DNA from: Pisciglobus halotolerans
GTDB lineage: Bacteria; Bacillota; Bacilli; Lactobacillales; Carnobacteriaceae
Length of the DNA stretch: 45,221 nucleotides
Assembly (NCBI RefSeq): GCF_900113675.1
Contig: NZ_FOQE01000017.1
Span: 1-45,221 of the forward strand
Direction of reading: 5' to 3'
A model generated the notes under the pieces. It searched no databases and was not told the origin of the DNA. It was given only the letters and a program-made list of their open reading frames with translations. Position numbers and translations under genes: made by a program. Numbering within the stretch: position 1 is the first letter of the stretch; each line of letters starts with the position of its first letter. Shown here piece by piece: positions 3,468 to 44,887 of the stretch.

Positions 3468-3605
3468 GTTTTTTCCTCTTCTAACGCTGGTAAAGAAATT
3501 TCCTCCAGTCGATGGGCTGCTAAAATTTCTAGAAGTAGAATACTAACGAGTTTAGCCTGAAAAAGGAATGGTTTTTTACTGACCAATGTTAAATATTGTA
3601 GAACC
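3468..3605 (+). mobile_element. MITE copy 1, short form (138 bp)
   Basis: Begins with a diverged left end (GTTTTTTCCTC then TTCTAACGCTGG) and ends TTAAATATTGTAGAACC. Flanked by target duplications CATATATT (3460-3467) and CATACATT (3606-3613), 7 of 8 identical. The centre lacks the folded core of the long form: it runs GGGCTGCTAAAATTTC, where copies 4 and 5 have the CTGA joint. It lies 2 bp beyond the T-tract of the ytxH terminator. No coding capacity. Confidence 0.88.
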
Positions 3606-5469: not shown

Positions 5470-5806
5470 AATAGGTAAATAAAACACCATAAAAAGTTCT
5501 TCATCTATGAATATTAACTTTTTCTCTTGCATAAATGCTGAGTTGGTGTTACATTTATATTTACAAGCCGCAGTTGGTTCATTCGTTTTTATCAGGAATC
5601 CATCAGATGTTGATAAAAGTTAATGAATTTAAAGGCTTCACTAACGTATCGCTTCGCAGTGTCTACCACCGAAGCGATACGTTTCTTTGTGTTGATCAAG
5701 TTTTTTTATCTTTTATTGTGCCTTTTTCTTTTCAGTTTATAGCAAATCTTTATATTTTGTTTTAAAATAGAAGGGACTGCTAATGCTTTTTGAAAGGAGA
5801 AGAAAG
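5470..5806. other. Intergenic region with one terminator
   Basis: Apart from the hairpin at 5643-5690 I see no gene or repeat. A 76-codon open frame here (5535-5765) runs across the hairpin, has no ribosome binding site and is biased to Phe/Leu/Tyr; I do not regard it as real. Confidence 0.55.
5643..5690 (+). terminator. Hairpin terminator before queG
   Basis: AACGTATCGCTTCG (5643-5656) pairs with CGAAGCGATACGTT (5670-5683), followed by TTCTTTG. It isolates queG from the small gene upstream. Confidence 0.7.
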
Positions 5807-9667: not shown

Positions 9668-9933
9668 ATAAAAAAAGCCTCTTTCTAGTCTGCAAAAAGA
9701 CTAAAAAGAGACGAGTTATTCCCGCGGTACCACTCTTGTTGTTGTGTTTGGAACACAACCACTTGTTTCTGTCATAACGGCTGAAATGGCCGGAACTGAT
9801 CAGTAAAAACTGACTTCATTCTCTCCGAAGTACGATTCCTGCAAATTTCCGTGATTGGCTCCCACCGTCCCAACTCGCTATTGACTTCCATCAGCAGTAC
9901 TTTCTTCATCAACGATCATTATTTGATTTTTTC
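9668..9933 (-). promoter_or_regulatory. T-box leader of argS
   Basis: On the minus strand GAGTGGTACCGCGGG (T-box core, plus-strand 9722-9735) is followed by a terminator: CTCTTT and AGTC pair with GACT and AAAGAG before a T run (9670-9711). Upstream lies a long structured stem I region. A CGT triplet followed by A (9834-9832) lies where the specifier is expected and would read Arg; the assignment is by position and not confirmed by folding. Uncharged tRNA-Arg should favour the antiterminator. Confidence 0.88.
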
Positions 9934-13067: not shown

Positions 13068-13100
13068 AAGACTAGGAAACGTTCTAGTCTTATTTTTTTT
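13068..13100 (+). terminator. Terminator after aldo/keto reductase, its T-tract used by a MITE
   Basis: AAGACTAG (13068-13075) pairs with CTAGTCTT (13084-13091), followed by A and eight T. Part of that tract (13092-13099) is the left target duplication of the adjacent MITE. Confidence 0.88.
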
Positions 13101-13381
13101 ATTCTTCATTCTCTAACGTTGGTAAAGAAATTTTCTACGGTAGATGGGGCTACTGATGAAAAGCTGTGAGCAAGTATTGAGCCGAAAACCGCCTCTCGAT
13201 GCTCGCAAGCTTCAAACTTAGTATCATGGCTAAAGCCTAACATTAAGTGACTCACACTGCATCTTTTTTCATGGCTATTAGTTGTCCTATACCCTTCCTG
13301 AAGTTTTTAGAAATAGAATTTTAACAGGATTAGCATCAAAAAAATGATTTTTTACTAACCAGCGTTAAAAATTGTAGAACC
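13100..13381 (+). mobile_element. MITE copy 2, long form (282 bp)
   Basis: Left end TATTCTTCATT then CTCTAACGTTGG; right end GCGTTAAAAATTGTAGAACC. Imperfect target duplications ATTTTTTT (13092-13099) and CTTTTCTT (13382-13389), 6 of 8 identical, suggest an older insertion. Contains the branched core: an outer stem, a hairpin with GGCTAAAGCC at its tip and a second hairpin TATTGAG/CTCGATG held by G.T pairs. Lies between the aldo/keto reductase terminator and the proS T-box promoter. Confidence 0.85.
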
Positions 13382-25791: not shown

Positions 25792-25808
25792 AGTTGTCTT
25801 TATTGTTT

Positions 25809-26086
25809 GTTTCTTCTTTTAACGTTGGTAAAGAAATTTCCTATGGTCGATGAGCTACTGATGGAAAGCCATGAGAACACATTGAGCCGAAAATCGCGTC
25901 TCAATGTTTGCAAGCTTTAAACTTAGTGTAACGGCTAAAGCCTAATACTAAGTGATTCACATTGCATCTTTTTTCATGGCTATCAGTAGCCCTATGTGCC
26001 TCCTGAAATTTCTAAAAATAGAATACTAATGAATTTAGCATTAAAAAAATTGATATTTTACAGATCAATTTTTTTAATGTAGAACC
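25809..26086 (+). mobile_element. MITE copy 3, long form (278 bp)
   Basis: Left end GTTTCTTCTTTTAACGTTGG; right end degenerate, finishing TAATGTAGAACC. Target duplications TATTGTTT (25801-25808) and TATTATTT (26087-26094), 7 of 8. The core is well preserved: CTACTGAT and GCCATGA pair with TCATGGC and ATCAGTAG, with hairpins CATTGAG/CTCAATG and ACTTAGTGT/ATACTAAGT. It starts 10 bp past the T-tract of the penicillin-binding protein terminator. Confidence 0.88.
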
Positions 26087-32179: not shown

Positions 32180-32314
32180 GTTTTTTAATCTTTTAACGTT
32201 AGTAAAGAAATTTTCTCCAATCGATGGGCTACTGAAATTTCTATAAATAGGATTCTAATGAGCTTAGCAATAAAAAATGATATTTTACAGACCAACGTTA
32301 AATATTGCAGAACC
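32180..32314 (+). mobile_element. MITE copy 4, short form (135 bp)
   Basis: Left end GTTTTTTAATC then TTTTAACGTTAG; right end CCAACGTTAAATATTGCAGAACC. Target duplications TAGTTTTT (32172-32179) and AAGTTTTT (32315-32322), 7 of 8. Central joint GGGCTACTGAAATTTC is shared with copy 5. Located at the very end of the glcK terminator T-tract. Confidence 0.9.
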
Positions 32315-32389
32315 AAGTTTTTCCGTCTTTTGATGCGTGTAAAGCTGGAAGGTTAGGGCTTTAAAAAAGGAGAAAACGAAAAGCTGTGC

Positions 32390-32395
32390 TATAAT
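32390..32395 (+). promoter_or_regulatory. -10 element of the lipoprotein gene
   Basis: TATAAT at 32390-32395, 54 bp before the start; no good -35 at 16-18 bp. Confidence 0.45.
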
Positions 32396-32449
32396 GAATA
32401 AAAGGGCCTCAGGAAACAAGGAAGACGAGAATAAAAATAGGGTGATAAA

Positions 32450-33559
32450 ATGAAAAAAACAATCCACATAAATTGGGTAGCTTTAATTTTGGTTGTTGCC
32501 TTGTTTTTAAGCGGCTGTCATAGCCAACAGCCATCTAAGCAAAACAAAATAGATAAAAAGCCTGTTAAAATCGAAAAAACCGCTATCCCTTATTCAAACT
32601 TTCGCAAAGTTTCCGGCTGGTTATCGAATGATGAAGTTTTGATTCATTCTGGGTCAGAAGAAGGAGATCGTCTAAGTTCTTTTAATGTATTAACAGGCAA
32701 AACAAAAGACCTTTTTTCAACAGATGCTTATATCTTAACGACTGCTGTTTCTCAAAAAGAGCAAGAAATCGTTTTTCAAGAAGTAGCAGATACAAGCTCA
32801 AAGATGGTATTGATCGATACGGAAGGAAATAAACTTCAAGAACTGCCGATCAAGGCTAATGGATATGTTTCTTTGAATTGGAATAAAGATGACACTTCGC
32901 AGCTCTTCATTGCTTATTATCACACTGCCGAAGAATTGACACTTTTAAACTGGGATACAAAAGAAAATAAAGCTGAAGAATTAAGTGCTTCTTCACTTTA
33001 TCCTTCTTGGTATTCAGAAAACCTTTATTTATACGTTGATAATAAAGATGATTTTTTACTAGAATCGGGACAACTTTATATGGGAGATGTGCGTTCAAAC
33101 GATGTCATGCTCATCAATAGTGAGGTCTCAGACTTTTTCTTACATGAAGACACTTTTATAACCTATACTCCTTCTGATTTTAACGAAAAAGAACTTTTAT
33201 TGACTTACCAATATCCTTTTATGGTAGACAAAGGATTTATGACTATTCCTAAAGTTACGATGAACGAACGCATCAACTTTCCCTACTTGACACAAGCTGG
33301 CAGAGATACACCTGTTTACGGCATTATTGCAAAAGAGTCTGCTGAACTTGAGAAAGAGAGTGGAGAATTTGTTTTTGGTTACTTGGATTTTGATCAACAA
33401 AAAGTCATACCTGTAACAGATGTACCTGAAAATGCACCCATACAAATATCTGAAAATGGTAAATACTGCCTTTATGGCTGGCGATTTGAATATTTGATTG
33501 ATAATCAAACAGGAAAAATACATGATTTGATCGAGATACCGGAAGATTTACAAGCATAA
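32450..33559 (+). CDS. YqgU-like lipoprotein, predicted beta-propeller
   Basis: 369 residues. Signal peptide with lipobox LSGC (Cys at about 23), so it is lipid-anchored outside the membrane. The body has repeated short beta motifs (GWLSNDEVLIHSGSEEG; LNWNKDDTSQLFIAYY; WYSENLYLYVDN) in the style of six-bladed propellers and of the YqgU lipoprotein that sits in the corresponding Bacillus yqg region. No enzyme motif seen. RBS AGGGTGA. Function unknown. Confidence 0.75.
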   Translation: MKKTIHINWVALILVVALFLSGCHSQQPSKQNKIDKKPVKIEKTAIPYSNFRKVSGWLSNDEVLIHSGSEEGDRLSSFNVLTGKTKDLFSTDAYILTTAVSQKEQEIVFQEVADTSSKMVLIDTEGNKLQELPIKANGYVSLNWNKDDTSQLFIAYYHTAEELTLLNWDTKENKAEELSASSLYPSWYSENLYLYVDNKDDFLLESGQLYMGDVRSNDVMLINSEVSDFFLHEDTFITYTPSDFNEKELLLTYQYPFMVDKGFMTIPKVTMNERINFPYLTQAGRDTPVYGIIAKESAELEKESGEFVFGYLDFDQQKVIPVTDVPENAPIQISENGKYCLYGWRFEYLIDNQTGKIHDLIEIPEDLQA

Positions 33560-33693
33560 TAAGGCACATAAAGTAGAAAAAGACTTTTTCCTATCTGATT
33601 CTTTAGATGCCTTTAAAATTCTTGGTAGTCAATCACGGTTTTCTTGTGTAAAATGAAGAAGTGTAAGACGTGATGAAAGGAGAGTAATAGATT

Positions 33694-34092
33694 TTGAATA
33701 CAACAACAATCATTAACTGGGTATTGTGGGTCATCATTATTATTTGGGGGATCTATGAACTCATACAGTATTTCCGACGCAGACGAGCAGCTAAAGTATT
33801 GACTCAAGAAGAATTCAGTAAAAATCTGCGGAAAGTCCAACTGATTGATGTTCGTGAAAAAGACGAATATAATGCTGGACATATTCTAGGAGCACGGAGC
33901 TTGCCATACACTGCATTAAAACAGCGAATGGGCGAAATCAGAAAAGATCAACCAGTGTATCTTTATGATCAAAAACAAGCATTAAGCGCACGTGCAGCTC
34001 TAAAACTGCGGAATGCCGGCTATGAGAATATTTACATATTAAAAGGCGGCTACAATGACTGGACAGGAAAAATCAAGCGAAAAGCACGCTAA
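33694..34092 (+). CDS. YqhL-like membrane-anchored rhodanese-fold protein
   Basis: 132 residues: N-terminal membrane helix (WVLWVIIIIWGIYELIQYF), basic stretch, then a rhodanese domain (LIDVREKDEYNAGHILGARSLP...YILKGGYNDWTGKI). The active-site loop that normally carries the catalytic Cys reads VYLYDQKQALSARAA, with no cysteine, so sulfur transfer is unlikely; the Bacillus YqhL group looks similar. Probably a binding or scaffolding protein at the membrane. TTG start at 33694 after AAAGGAGAG. Confidence 0.82.
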   Translation: MNTTTIINWVLWVIIIIWGIYELIQYFRRRRAAKVLTQEEFSKNLRKVQLIDVREKDEYNAGHILGARSLPYTALKQRMGEIRKDQPVYLYDQKQALSARAALKLRNAGYENIYILKGGYNDWTGKIKRKAR

Positions 34093-34120
34093 AAAAAGAG
34101 GCAGAAACAAAAGGACTCTC

Positions 34121-34188
34121 AAAAAAACGCATTCCCAAAACTATTGAACTATTTGTTCATTAGCGGGAGTGCGTTTTTCTAGTTGTTC
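34121..34188 (+). terminator. Terminator after the rhodanese gene, T-tract used by a MITE
   Basis: AACGCATTCCC pairs with GGGAGTGCGTT across a loop of about 39 nt, followed by T5. The tract lies inside the 8-bp target duplication of MITE copy 5. Confidence 0.85.
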
Positions 34189-34190
34189 CT

Positions 34191-34316
34191 CTTCTAACGT
34201 CGGTAAGAAATTTCCTCCGGTCGAAAGGCTACTGAAATTTCTAGAAATAGGTTTTAACGGATTTAGCATTAAAAAAAAGTGTTTTTTTACTGTCCAACAT
34301 TAAATATGGTAGAACC
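34191..34316 (+). mobile_element. MITE copy 5, short form (126 bp), perfect target duplication
   Basis: Left end AGTTGTTCCTCTTCTAACG; right end CAACATTAAATATGGTAGAACC. Perfect 8-bp target duplication GTTTTTCT at 34183-34190 and 34317-34324. Middle joint GGCTACTGAAATTTC as in copy 4. Target is the terminator T-tract of the rhodanese gene. Confidence 0.95.
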
Positions 34317-42112: not shown

Positions 42113-42394
42113 GGTTCTACAATATTTAACGTTGGTCTGTAAAAAATCAATTTTTTTAATGCTAAGCTCGTTAGAAACCTATTTCTAGAAATTTCAGGAG
42201 GCGCATAGGGCTACTGATAGCCATGAAAAAAGATGCAATGTGAATCACTTAGTGTTAGGCTTTAGCCGTTACACTAAGTTTGAAGCTTGCAAGCATTGAG
42301 AGGCGATTTTCGGCTCAATGTGTTCTCATGGCTTTCCATCAGTAGTCTATCGACCGGAGGAAATTTCTTTACCAACGTTAAAAGAGGAAGAACC
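42113..42394 (-). mobile_element. MITE copy 6, long form (282 bp), inverted, perfect target duplication
   Basis: Plus strand begins GGTTCTACAATATTTAACG and ends AACGTTAAAAGAGGAAGAACC, giving imperfect terminal inverted repeats of about 25 bp. Perfect duplication TGTTATAT at 42105-42112 and 42395-42402. Core: outer stem 42210-42225 with 42326-42345 (4-nt bulge), hairpin A 42247-42279 tipped with GGCTTTAGCC, hairpin B 42294-42320. Orientation is opposite to the other six copies. Best-preserved copy. Confidence 0.95.
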
Positions 42395-42936: not shown

Positions 42937-43010
42937 TCAAGATGACAGGAATTGAACCTGCGACCCCTTCGTCCCGAACGAAGTGCTCTACCAAGCTGAG
43001 CTACATCTTG
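42937..43010 (-). tRNA. tRNA-Pro (anticodon CGG)
   Basis: Acceptor CAAGATG/CATCTTG, D arm GCTCAGCTTGGTAGAGC, anticodon stem CTTCG/CGAAG with loop TTCGGGA (anticodon 42976-42974), T arm GCAGGTTCAATTCCTGT. 74 nt, discriminator A, no encoded CCA. Reads CCG. Confidence 0.93.
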
Positions 43011-43120
43011 GAGATGTTCAGAAAGGTAGAGAAGATACGTCTGCTGATAAAGTAGAAGAGGAGAAGGAAACGAATCATATTTTCCAGGTACATCATTCAT
43101 CTGCTCTTGCCGTTCCTTTA

Positions 43121-43203
43121 TGGCCTGAGTGGGATTCGAACCCACACGAGATTGCTCTCACTAGTACCTGAAACTAGCGTGTCTGCCTTTCCACCACCAG
43201 GCC
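43121..43203 (-). tRNA. tRNA-Leu (anticodon CAG)
   Basis: Acceptor GGCCTGG/TCAGGCC with one G.T pair, anticodon stem CTAGT/ACTAG with loop TTCAGGT (anticodon 43170-43168), long variable arm GAGAGCAATCTC, T arm GTGGGTTCGAATCCCAC. 83 nt, discriminator A, no encoded CCA. Reads CUG. Confidence 0.93.
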
Positions 43204-43307
43204 TAAAAATAAAAGGATTCCCTTTGTTAAAAGGTTATCCTTGTTAAAGTAATTAAAAAAGAGAAGAAAAAAAGAACCTCTCTTATAGAAATTCTTTAAA
43301 CAAAATA

Positions 43308-43381
43308 CGTCTCAGGAGAGATTCGAACTCCCGACCGTTCGCTTAGAAGGCGAATGCTCTATCCTGCTGAGCTACTGAGAC
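43308..43381 (-). tRNA. tRNA-Arg (anticodon TCT)
   Basis: Acceptor GTCTCAG/CTGAGAC, anticodon stem TTCGC/GCGAA with loop CTTCTAA (anticodon 43347-43345), T arm GGGAGTTCGAATCTCTC. 74 nt, discriminator G, no encoded CCA. Reads AGA. First tRNA after the promoter. Confidence 0.94.
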
Positions 43382-44790: not shown

Positions 44791-44887
44791 GGTTCTGCAT
44801 TCTCTAACATTGGTAAAGAAACGGGATTCTAACAAGTTTAGCATCAAAAAATATCTTTTACTGACCCGCGTTAAATATTGTAGAAAC
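44791..44887 (+). mobile_element. MITE copy 7, mini form (97 bp)
   Basis: Left end GGTTCTGCATTCTCTAACA; right end GCGTTAAATATTGTAGAAAC (one change from AGAACC). Target duplications AAAAAAAG (44783-44790) and TAAAAAAG (44888-44895), 7 of 8. It lacks both the core and the AAATTTC arms: GGTAAAGAAA joins directly to GGATTCTAAC. The only copy not next to a recognisable terminator hairpin. Confidence 0.85.

Follow-up and report, generated by a model that had tools for sequence, protein, structure and literature searches.

The long and short copies of a miniature inverted-repeat transposable element (MITE) found in this stretch of DNA (the window, 45,221 nt) probably reflect recurrent, hairpin-assisted deletion of a core from the ancestral long form of one ISL3-ended family. 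Three size classes of these miniature elements would be members of this one family, sharing ISL3-like ends and target duplications of 8 bp. Its ancestral form would be the long one (about 280 bp), because full long elements are also present in other genera. A ~133-bp form would have arisen by repeated loss of the folded core between CTnCTGA/CTGA direct repeats, and at least part of a ~95-bp form by deletion between AGAAAT repeats. Replication slipping across the hairpin is the probable mechanism, and some short copies may have been copied onward rather than made in place.

Size classes, junctions and target duplications

The window is contig 59 of a genome assembled as 88 contigs (2.44 Mb). 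It carries the following copies and cores:

3468..3605, + strand: copy 1, short form; mutated junction; old group; target duplication catatatt/catacatt (7/8)
13100..13381, + strand: copy 2, long form; outside the young clade; left border approximate
13124-13323: folded core inside copy 2
25806..26086, + strand: copy 3, long form; left border approximate; right end altered
25830-26028: folded core inside copy 3
32180..32314, + strand: copy 4, short form; young group; target duplication tagttttt/aagttttt (7/8)
34181..34316, + strand: copy 5, short form; old group; target duplication gtttttct/gtttttct (8/8)
42113..42394, - strand: copy 6, long form; left and right 8-bp flanks identical
42172-42370: folded core inside copy 6
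44791..44887, + strand: copy 7, ~95-bp form, from reading the sequence; flanks aaaaaaag/taaaaaag (7/8)

As the initial annotation had stated, copies 4 and 5 share one exact junction, GGCTACTGAAATTTC, which occurs exactly only twice in the window (32227-32241 and 34227-34241), and copy 1 has a version with two mismatches (3515-3529). At up to three mismatches, six window matches were found against a shuffle mean of 2.0. When the window copies are aligned, the long ones read ...GGCTACTGATGG...CTCCTGAAATTTC... across the stretch missing from the short ones. The genome's long consensus has CTGA at positions 53 and 198, the edges of an exact 145-bp loss, which agrees with the proposed recombination between two CTGA repeats. 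The second, larger internal deletion ascribed to copy 7 was confirmed: it is joined at an AGAAA(T) repeat and places copy 7 in a third size class. This deletion is not unique to copy 7, as other ~95-bp copies in the genome join at the same AGAAAT repeat.

A census by pattern and DNA searches of the genome plus 60 fetched stretches, in which the best 100 of 110 places were followed, yielded at least 91 copies with both ends paired: 47 long (245-283 bp), 26 short (127-136 bp), 14 under 100 bp and four others. Copy 7 was missed by the pairing script and is not among the 91; unpaired element ends also exist in the genome. The copies begin with GGTTCTTCMTCTTYTAACGTTGGTAAAG... on the left and finish with ...ACCAACGTTAAATATTGTAGAACC on the right. 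They are dispersed in large numbers, have terminal inverted repeats and are too small to encode a transposase, as is characteristic of MITEs. Eight-base-pair target duplications, matching at 7 or more of 8 positions, flank 68 of the 84 copies with both ends placed, compared with a mean of 3.5 and a maximum of 13 in a flank-swap control. They occur at 39/47 long, 20/24 short, 6/9 smallest-class and 3/4 other copies, and their A+T content is 84-91% by class. One element, at L093 580-1025, exceeds the long form, with paired ends 446 bp apart and an intact 8-bp duplication. At L123 (C41:6000-7400) the left end of an element runs into a tandem array of GAGTTGGTCAATAAGTAGCTTTAATGAC-type units.

Of the 26 short copies, 16 carry the CTGA junction without a mismatch and 24 with at most three; the remaining two are a copy with its middle inverted and a doubtful one. 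Allowing up to one mismatch, the AGAAAT junction can be recognised in five of the 14 smallest copies (under 100 bp). The other smallest copies are joined elsewhere or are too diverged for the junction to be placed; most of the old ~95-bp copies are so diverged, and the class may therefore be mixed. Its members (L079, L082, L087, L089, L099, L110 and others) include old and young copies and do not form one clade.

Phylogeny of the copies and origin of the short form

Trees were built from the 137 outer columns common to all forms, with 83 rows (47 long, 25 short and 11 ~95-bp). One doubtful short copy (L077_3168), three very short copies (L084, L115 and L116) and the four "other" copies were omitted, and L046 was masked over its inverted stretch. 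One clade, supported at 96/89, comprises 42 long, 14 short and four ~95-bp rows, leaving five long, 11 short and seven ~95-bp rows outside it; we named these the young and old groups after viewing the tree. The initial annotation had held that a single deletion gave the short form, which then spread, so that the short copies should form one clade. The AU test, which presumes absence of recombination, rejects one clade for the 25 short rows (p 0.00012), and both the old and the young group contain long and short forms. The rejection persists without the ~95-bp rows (p 0.0077), within the old group (11 short, five long; p 0.0015) and within the young group (14 short, 42 long; p 0.009). One clade is likewise rejected for the ~95-bp rows (p 0.0015) and for short and ~95-bp rows jointly (p 0.0016). 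On the starred branches alone, the short class requires at least four changes. Resolution is otherwise low, with 48 of the 80 inner branches open; 137 columns for 83 rows give little to work with. The size label is weakly clustered on the tree (19 changes against a shuffled mean of 21.7, with 41 of 500 shuffles as low).

Diagnostic positions near the element ends divide the copies in the same way. Copy 4 has T and A, as in the young group, and copies 1 and 5 have C and T, as in the old. Young copies of all three forms (long, short and ~95-bp) have the A of TTTACAGACC, which on sequence comparison is derived, because copies in other genera that reach that far have T. Young short copies must have obtained it from young long copies through a second deletion at the same place, or else through conversion. 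At a divergence cut of 0.08, core-less copies make up 15 of 55 little-diverged rows and 21 of 28 diverged rows (Fisher 5e-5), a rise that fits loss over time; a rank test of divergence for long against short copies alone gave p 0.06.

These data weigh heavily against the earlier view of one deletion followed by independent spread of a short progenitor, which we now regard as very unlikely. It would explain why a single junction predominates at an unremarkable 4-bp repeat, and the separate 8-bp duplications of 20/24 short copies with both ends suit it. Differing duplications had been read as the mark of a mobile short progenitor for which the core was dispensable. That does not follow: when the core is deleted in place, a long copy retains its duplication, so the differences are not proof that a short progenitor was mobile, nor that transposition can proceed without the core. 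Two short-short pairs with moderate support, L057/L097 (96/79) and L128/copy 1 (95/71), would suit such a spread, and the AU test does not reject one clade for window copies 1, 4 and 5 (p 0.189). Against it stand the rejection of one short clade, overall and within each group, and the derived A common to young copies of all three sizes. A single old deletion followed by gene conversion between short and long copies, with the junction inherited and the outer segments following long copies, would account jointly for the one junction and the non-monophyly, and the copies would be numerous and similar enough for recombination. The mosaics it predicts are scarce, however: of the 20 short copies typable at both ends, 19 have concordant diagnostics and one is discordant, as judged at two diagnostic sites that are blind to conversion of the whole length. 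As mosaics are so few, repeated deletion is favoured, and we consider conversion improbable.

A stricter version of repeated deletion, in which every short copy was made in place from a long one and the short form never moved, is doubtful, though not to the same degree. The retention of duplications, the rise of core-less copies with divergence and the scattered placement on the tree all suit it; the nearest neighbour of the 25 short rows is long in 14 cases, short in seven and tied in four. Varied junctions in genome G016 are also in its favour. It fails to anticipate that 24/26 short copies share one junction despite longer repeats, that eight short copies differ from the consensus by no more than 3%, and that two short-short pairs have moderate support. 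CTGA is one of 53 four-base direct repeats in the long consensus, which also offers the 8-bp GAAATTTC, the 7-bp CACATTG and 6-bp repeats. CACATTG forms the junction in a single copy (L103) and GAAATTTC in none, compared with 16 exact and 24 near-exact copies at CTGA. This preference suggests either that a short progenitor was copied or that the structure creates a hot spot. Recurrent deletion of the core, perhaps with some onward copying of short forms, remains our preferred reading.

Core loss is not confined to this genome. In G016, from another genus, elements with ends GGCTCTTTATCAAATCGTGTTGGTG... have varied internal deletions: 12 right ends comprise four full-length cores (one with an altered arm), six partial cores and two without a core. 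At least six different junctions were distinguished by eye, and two copies share one. The element family thus loses its core recurrently.

A folded core shared among Lactobacillales

The part lost from the short form is a branched inverted-repeat fold of 52 pairs, located between AGAAATTTC and GAAATTTCT in the long form. In an alignment of 16 sequences from seven genomes, from which the structure was itself derived, 19 of the 52 pairs change on both sides, and 93.8% of core cells are paired, compared with 86.2 when shuffled and 33-45 when slid. A wider set of 71 matches (68 distinct rows) was aligned to the core model and is hence biased towards its structure; here double changes occur at 49/52 pairs (729 cells, against 191 shuffled). 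The model, R1, matches 11 of 18 genomes and four of six genera of the family, with 79, 77, 70, 51, 47, 30, 26, 20, 11, 8 and 3 matches per genome. Among 295 sampled Lactobacillales genomes the core is present in at least 27, spread over four family codes and 11 of the 74 genera; the tally is a lower bound, since the search used stricter filters and scored no more than eight matches per genome. The lost part is thus not filler: one fold is kept in 11 of the 74 sampled genera, yet repeatedly lost by single copies. Ends of the GG-N-TCT...TTGGT type again surround the core in several genomes, but were not made out around the cores of G083, G187 and G096. By blastn, Aerococcus tenax CP127381 has nine places resembling the G083 core, the best of them without an annotated feature. 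At L071 and other places in G010, cores occur two by two at a close spacing of about 240 bp, which would suit tandem duplication.

Searches for a known identity of the core were negative within their scope. A search of the window with Rfam 15 at gathering thresholds matched no copy; it placed a 23S-methyl RNA motif (5576-5688), a T-box leader (9704-9921) and three tRNA genes (42937-43381). At E values up to 5, Rfam searches of six loci touched the core only with chance-level edge matches (E 0.49 and 4.4), the single match over the cut-off being PyrR, outside the element. By blastn, three core queries had no match in plasmids and one had none in phages, and one exact core pattern was absent from viral contigs. 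Among the titles and abstract openings listed by searches of open-access literature, none described these repeats.

RNA tolerates G-U pairs, not A-C. As a control for the core we took SRP RNA from 20 element-bearing genomes (20 loci giving 18 distinct rows), located with RF01854, of which only a hairpin of about 80 bases matched and 19 of 20 matches fell below the family cut-off. Outside G-U-dominant pairs, G-U and A-C numbered 27 and 23 in the core and 30 and 2 in the control (Fisher p 0.00015). Over all pairs, the G-U/A-C counts were 49/23 for the core on the + strand and 44/19 in the - strand fold; those of SRP were 80/3 on the right strand and 21/12 on the wrong one. A larger core alignment gave 72/67 outside G-U-dominant pairs and 134/71 with them. 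Consensus energies were -41.8 and -46.0 on the two strands of the core, compared with -21.3 and -3.6 for SRP. The core thus has the covarying secondary structure of a structured RNA, but neither G-U far above A-C nor one better-folding strand. Long copies between tandem genes lie 15 times with and 13 times against the direction of the genes. Because G-U is hardly commoner than A-C, the core looks conserved as folded DNA rather than as ordinary RNA. Three points oppose this reading: two G-U-dominant pairs of helix 4 (columns 62-166 and 63-165) favour RNA of the + strand, the one control used, SRP, is structurally different, and some of the pairing may have arisen without selection, as taken up below. 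Whether G-U and A-C counts are nearly equal is a simple way to tell folded DNA from RNA in other repeat families too.

In a test for selection on individual copies of this genome, changes at pairs that keep pairing number 69 (84 expected) for the + strand and 57 (66 expected) for the - strand, with no clear strand bias. Changes that break pairs on both strands number 45 (88 expected), a comparison that misalignment of the A-rich outer part may inflate. Paired core positions change less than unpaired ones (171/4880 against 166/3655, p 0.016). Part of the pairing could arise without selection, if each hairpin arm served as template for the other; the retention of bulges and loops across families would argue against this as the whole story. 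A scan for new inverted repeats found one among 91 copies (copy 3) and 26 among 2000 random mutants; with no excess, we dropped arm-templated mutation as a general process in this genome. In copy 3, the right end (26039-26079) has given way to the element's own A-rich stretch copied in inverse orientation. In L246 (G016), one hairpin arm has come to match the other perfectly over a long stretch, as though copied from it. The short copy at L046 (1496-1628) has its internal stretch inverted between AGAAATTTC and GAAATTTCT, the kind of rearrangement that hairpin template switching would give.

We tentatively suggest that the core may be a deeply conserved module selected for its shape as DNA, either a cruciform or a single-strand hairpin with specific bulges and loops. 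It would be a putative target of recognition by a protein of the host or of the element, borne by ISL3-type MITEs across several families of Lactobacillales and repeatedly lost by slippage after landing. Integron attC sites are recombination sites whose conservation lies in the folded single-stranded DNA and not in the sequence, and by analogy the core is likewise a candidate folded DNA. Unlike attC sites, the core elements here sit within MITE ends with 8-bp duplications.

Relation to ISL3 and other repeats, and genomic context

The element ends have the GG-N-TCT...GTTGGT architecture of ISL3, with the same spacing as in the inverted repeat of the genome's own ISL3 remnants, GGCTCTTTGACAAGTAGTGTTGGTGGGTC; by hand count the two are similar rather than identical (15/24 bases). 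The ISL3 family generates 8-bp target duplications. The elements here are much shorter than an IS. PF01610 has five matches in the genome, four C-terminal pieces at contig ends and one match with stops. The ISL3 remnants (L159, L161 and L163) are tails at contig ends plus a degraded copy, and are a possible source of the transposase. The genome search found no full ISL3 copy with the exact MITE ends. In G103, which has several near-equal-scoring core copies, one core (L200) lies between an ISL3-like transposase tail and an ISL3-like end. We discarded the idea that the core is part of ISL3 elements there, since insertion into an IS is more likely, given two frames nearby that by their motifs would be a truncated ISL3 frame and a transposase-like one of unrelated type.

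MITEs with a long and a short form are already familiar, and the conserved core is the part worth following. PMC2229807 describes the Correia/NEMIS repeats of Neisseria as non-coding mobile repeats of about 155 and 107 bp, with a 50-bp internal difference, terminal inverted repeats and stem-loop potential. On that description, two sizes set apart by internal sequence are a shared trait. Correia/NEMIS elements have TA-type termini, in contrast to GGTTCT...GTTGGT and 8-bp A/T-rich duplications here, where moreover the missing part is 145 bp and conserved between families. The bcr repeats are not known outside one species group. In PMC3446304, bcr1-bcr18 of the Bacillus cereus group are intergenic multi-copy repeats, of which bcr1-bcr3 are MITE-like and bcr10 and bcr18 have conserved secondary structure and are predicted functional RNA elements. 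Unlike these, the core described here spans several families and is without a strong RNA-type G-U excess. The pneumococcal BOX and RUP repeats are not known to match those here. PMC3049150 presents them as small interspersed repeats in a related member of the order.

Genomic context was assessed from crude frames of at least 110 residues. Long copies lie between tandem genes in 28 cases, convergent genes in 10, divergent genes in none and at edges in nine; for short copies the numbers are 10, eight, four and three, with one copy inside a frame. The median distance to the 3′ end of a neighbouring gene is 82.5 bases (86 distances). Long copies may thus be kept out of promoter regions, a pattern noticed after the fact. 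Judged by the glucokinase adjoining copy 4, the nearest named relative is Desemzia incerta DSM 20581 (81% of residues; Carnobacteriaceae), whose locus has eight of the nine neighbouring genes tried. Its 21 kb contain no copy detectable by the long and short profiles or the core model, with nothing between glucokinase and yqgU, where copy 4 sits here. The GDPD gene following copy 5 was not found in that locus, and the lipoprotein between copies 4 and 5 has no relatives in this genome or in viral contigs. At the two contig ends (3-324 and 44900-45221), the window carries the same IS-like piece in inverse orientation, 98% identical over 322 nt, which is presumably a transposase end, IS3-like by its motif; the assembly broke at an IS at both ends.
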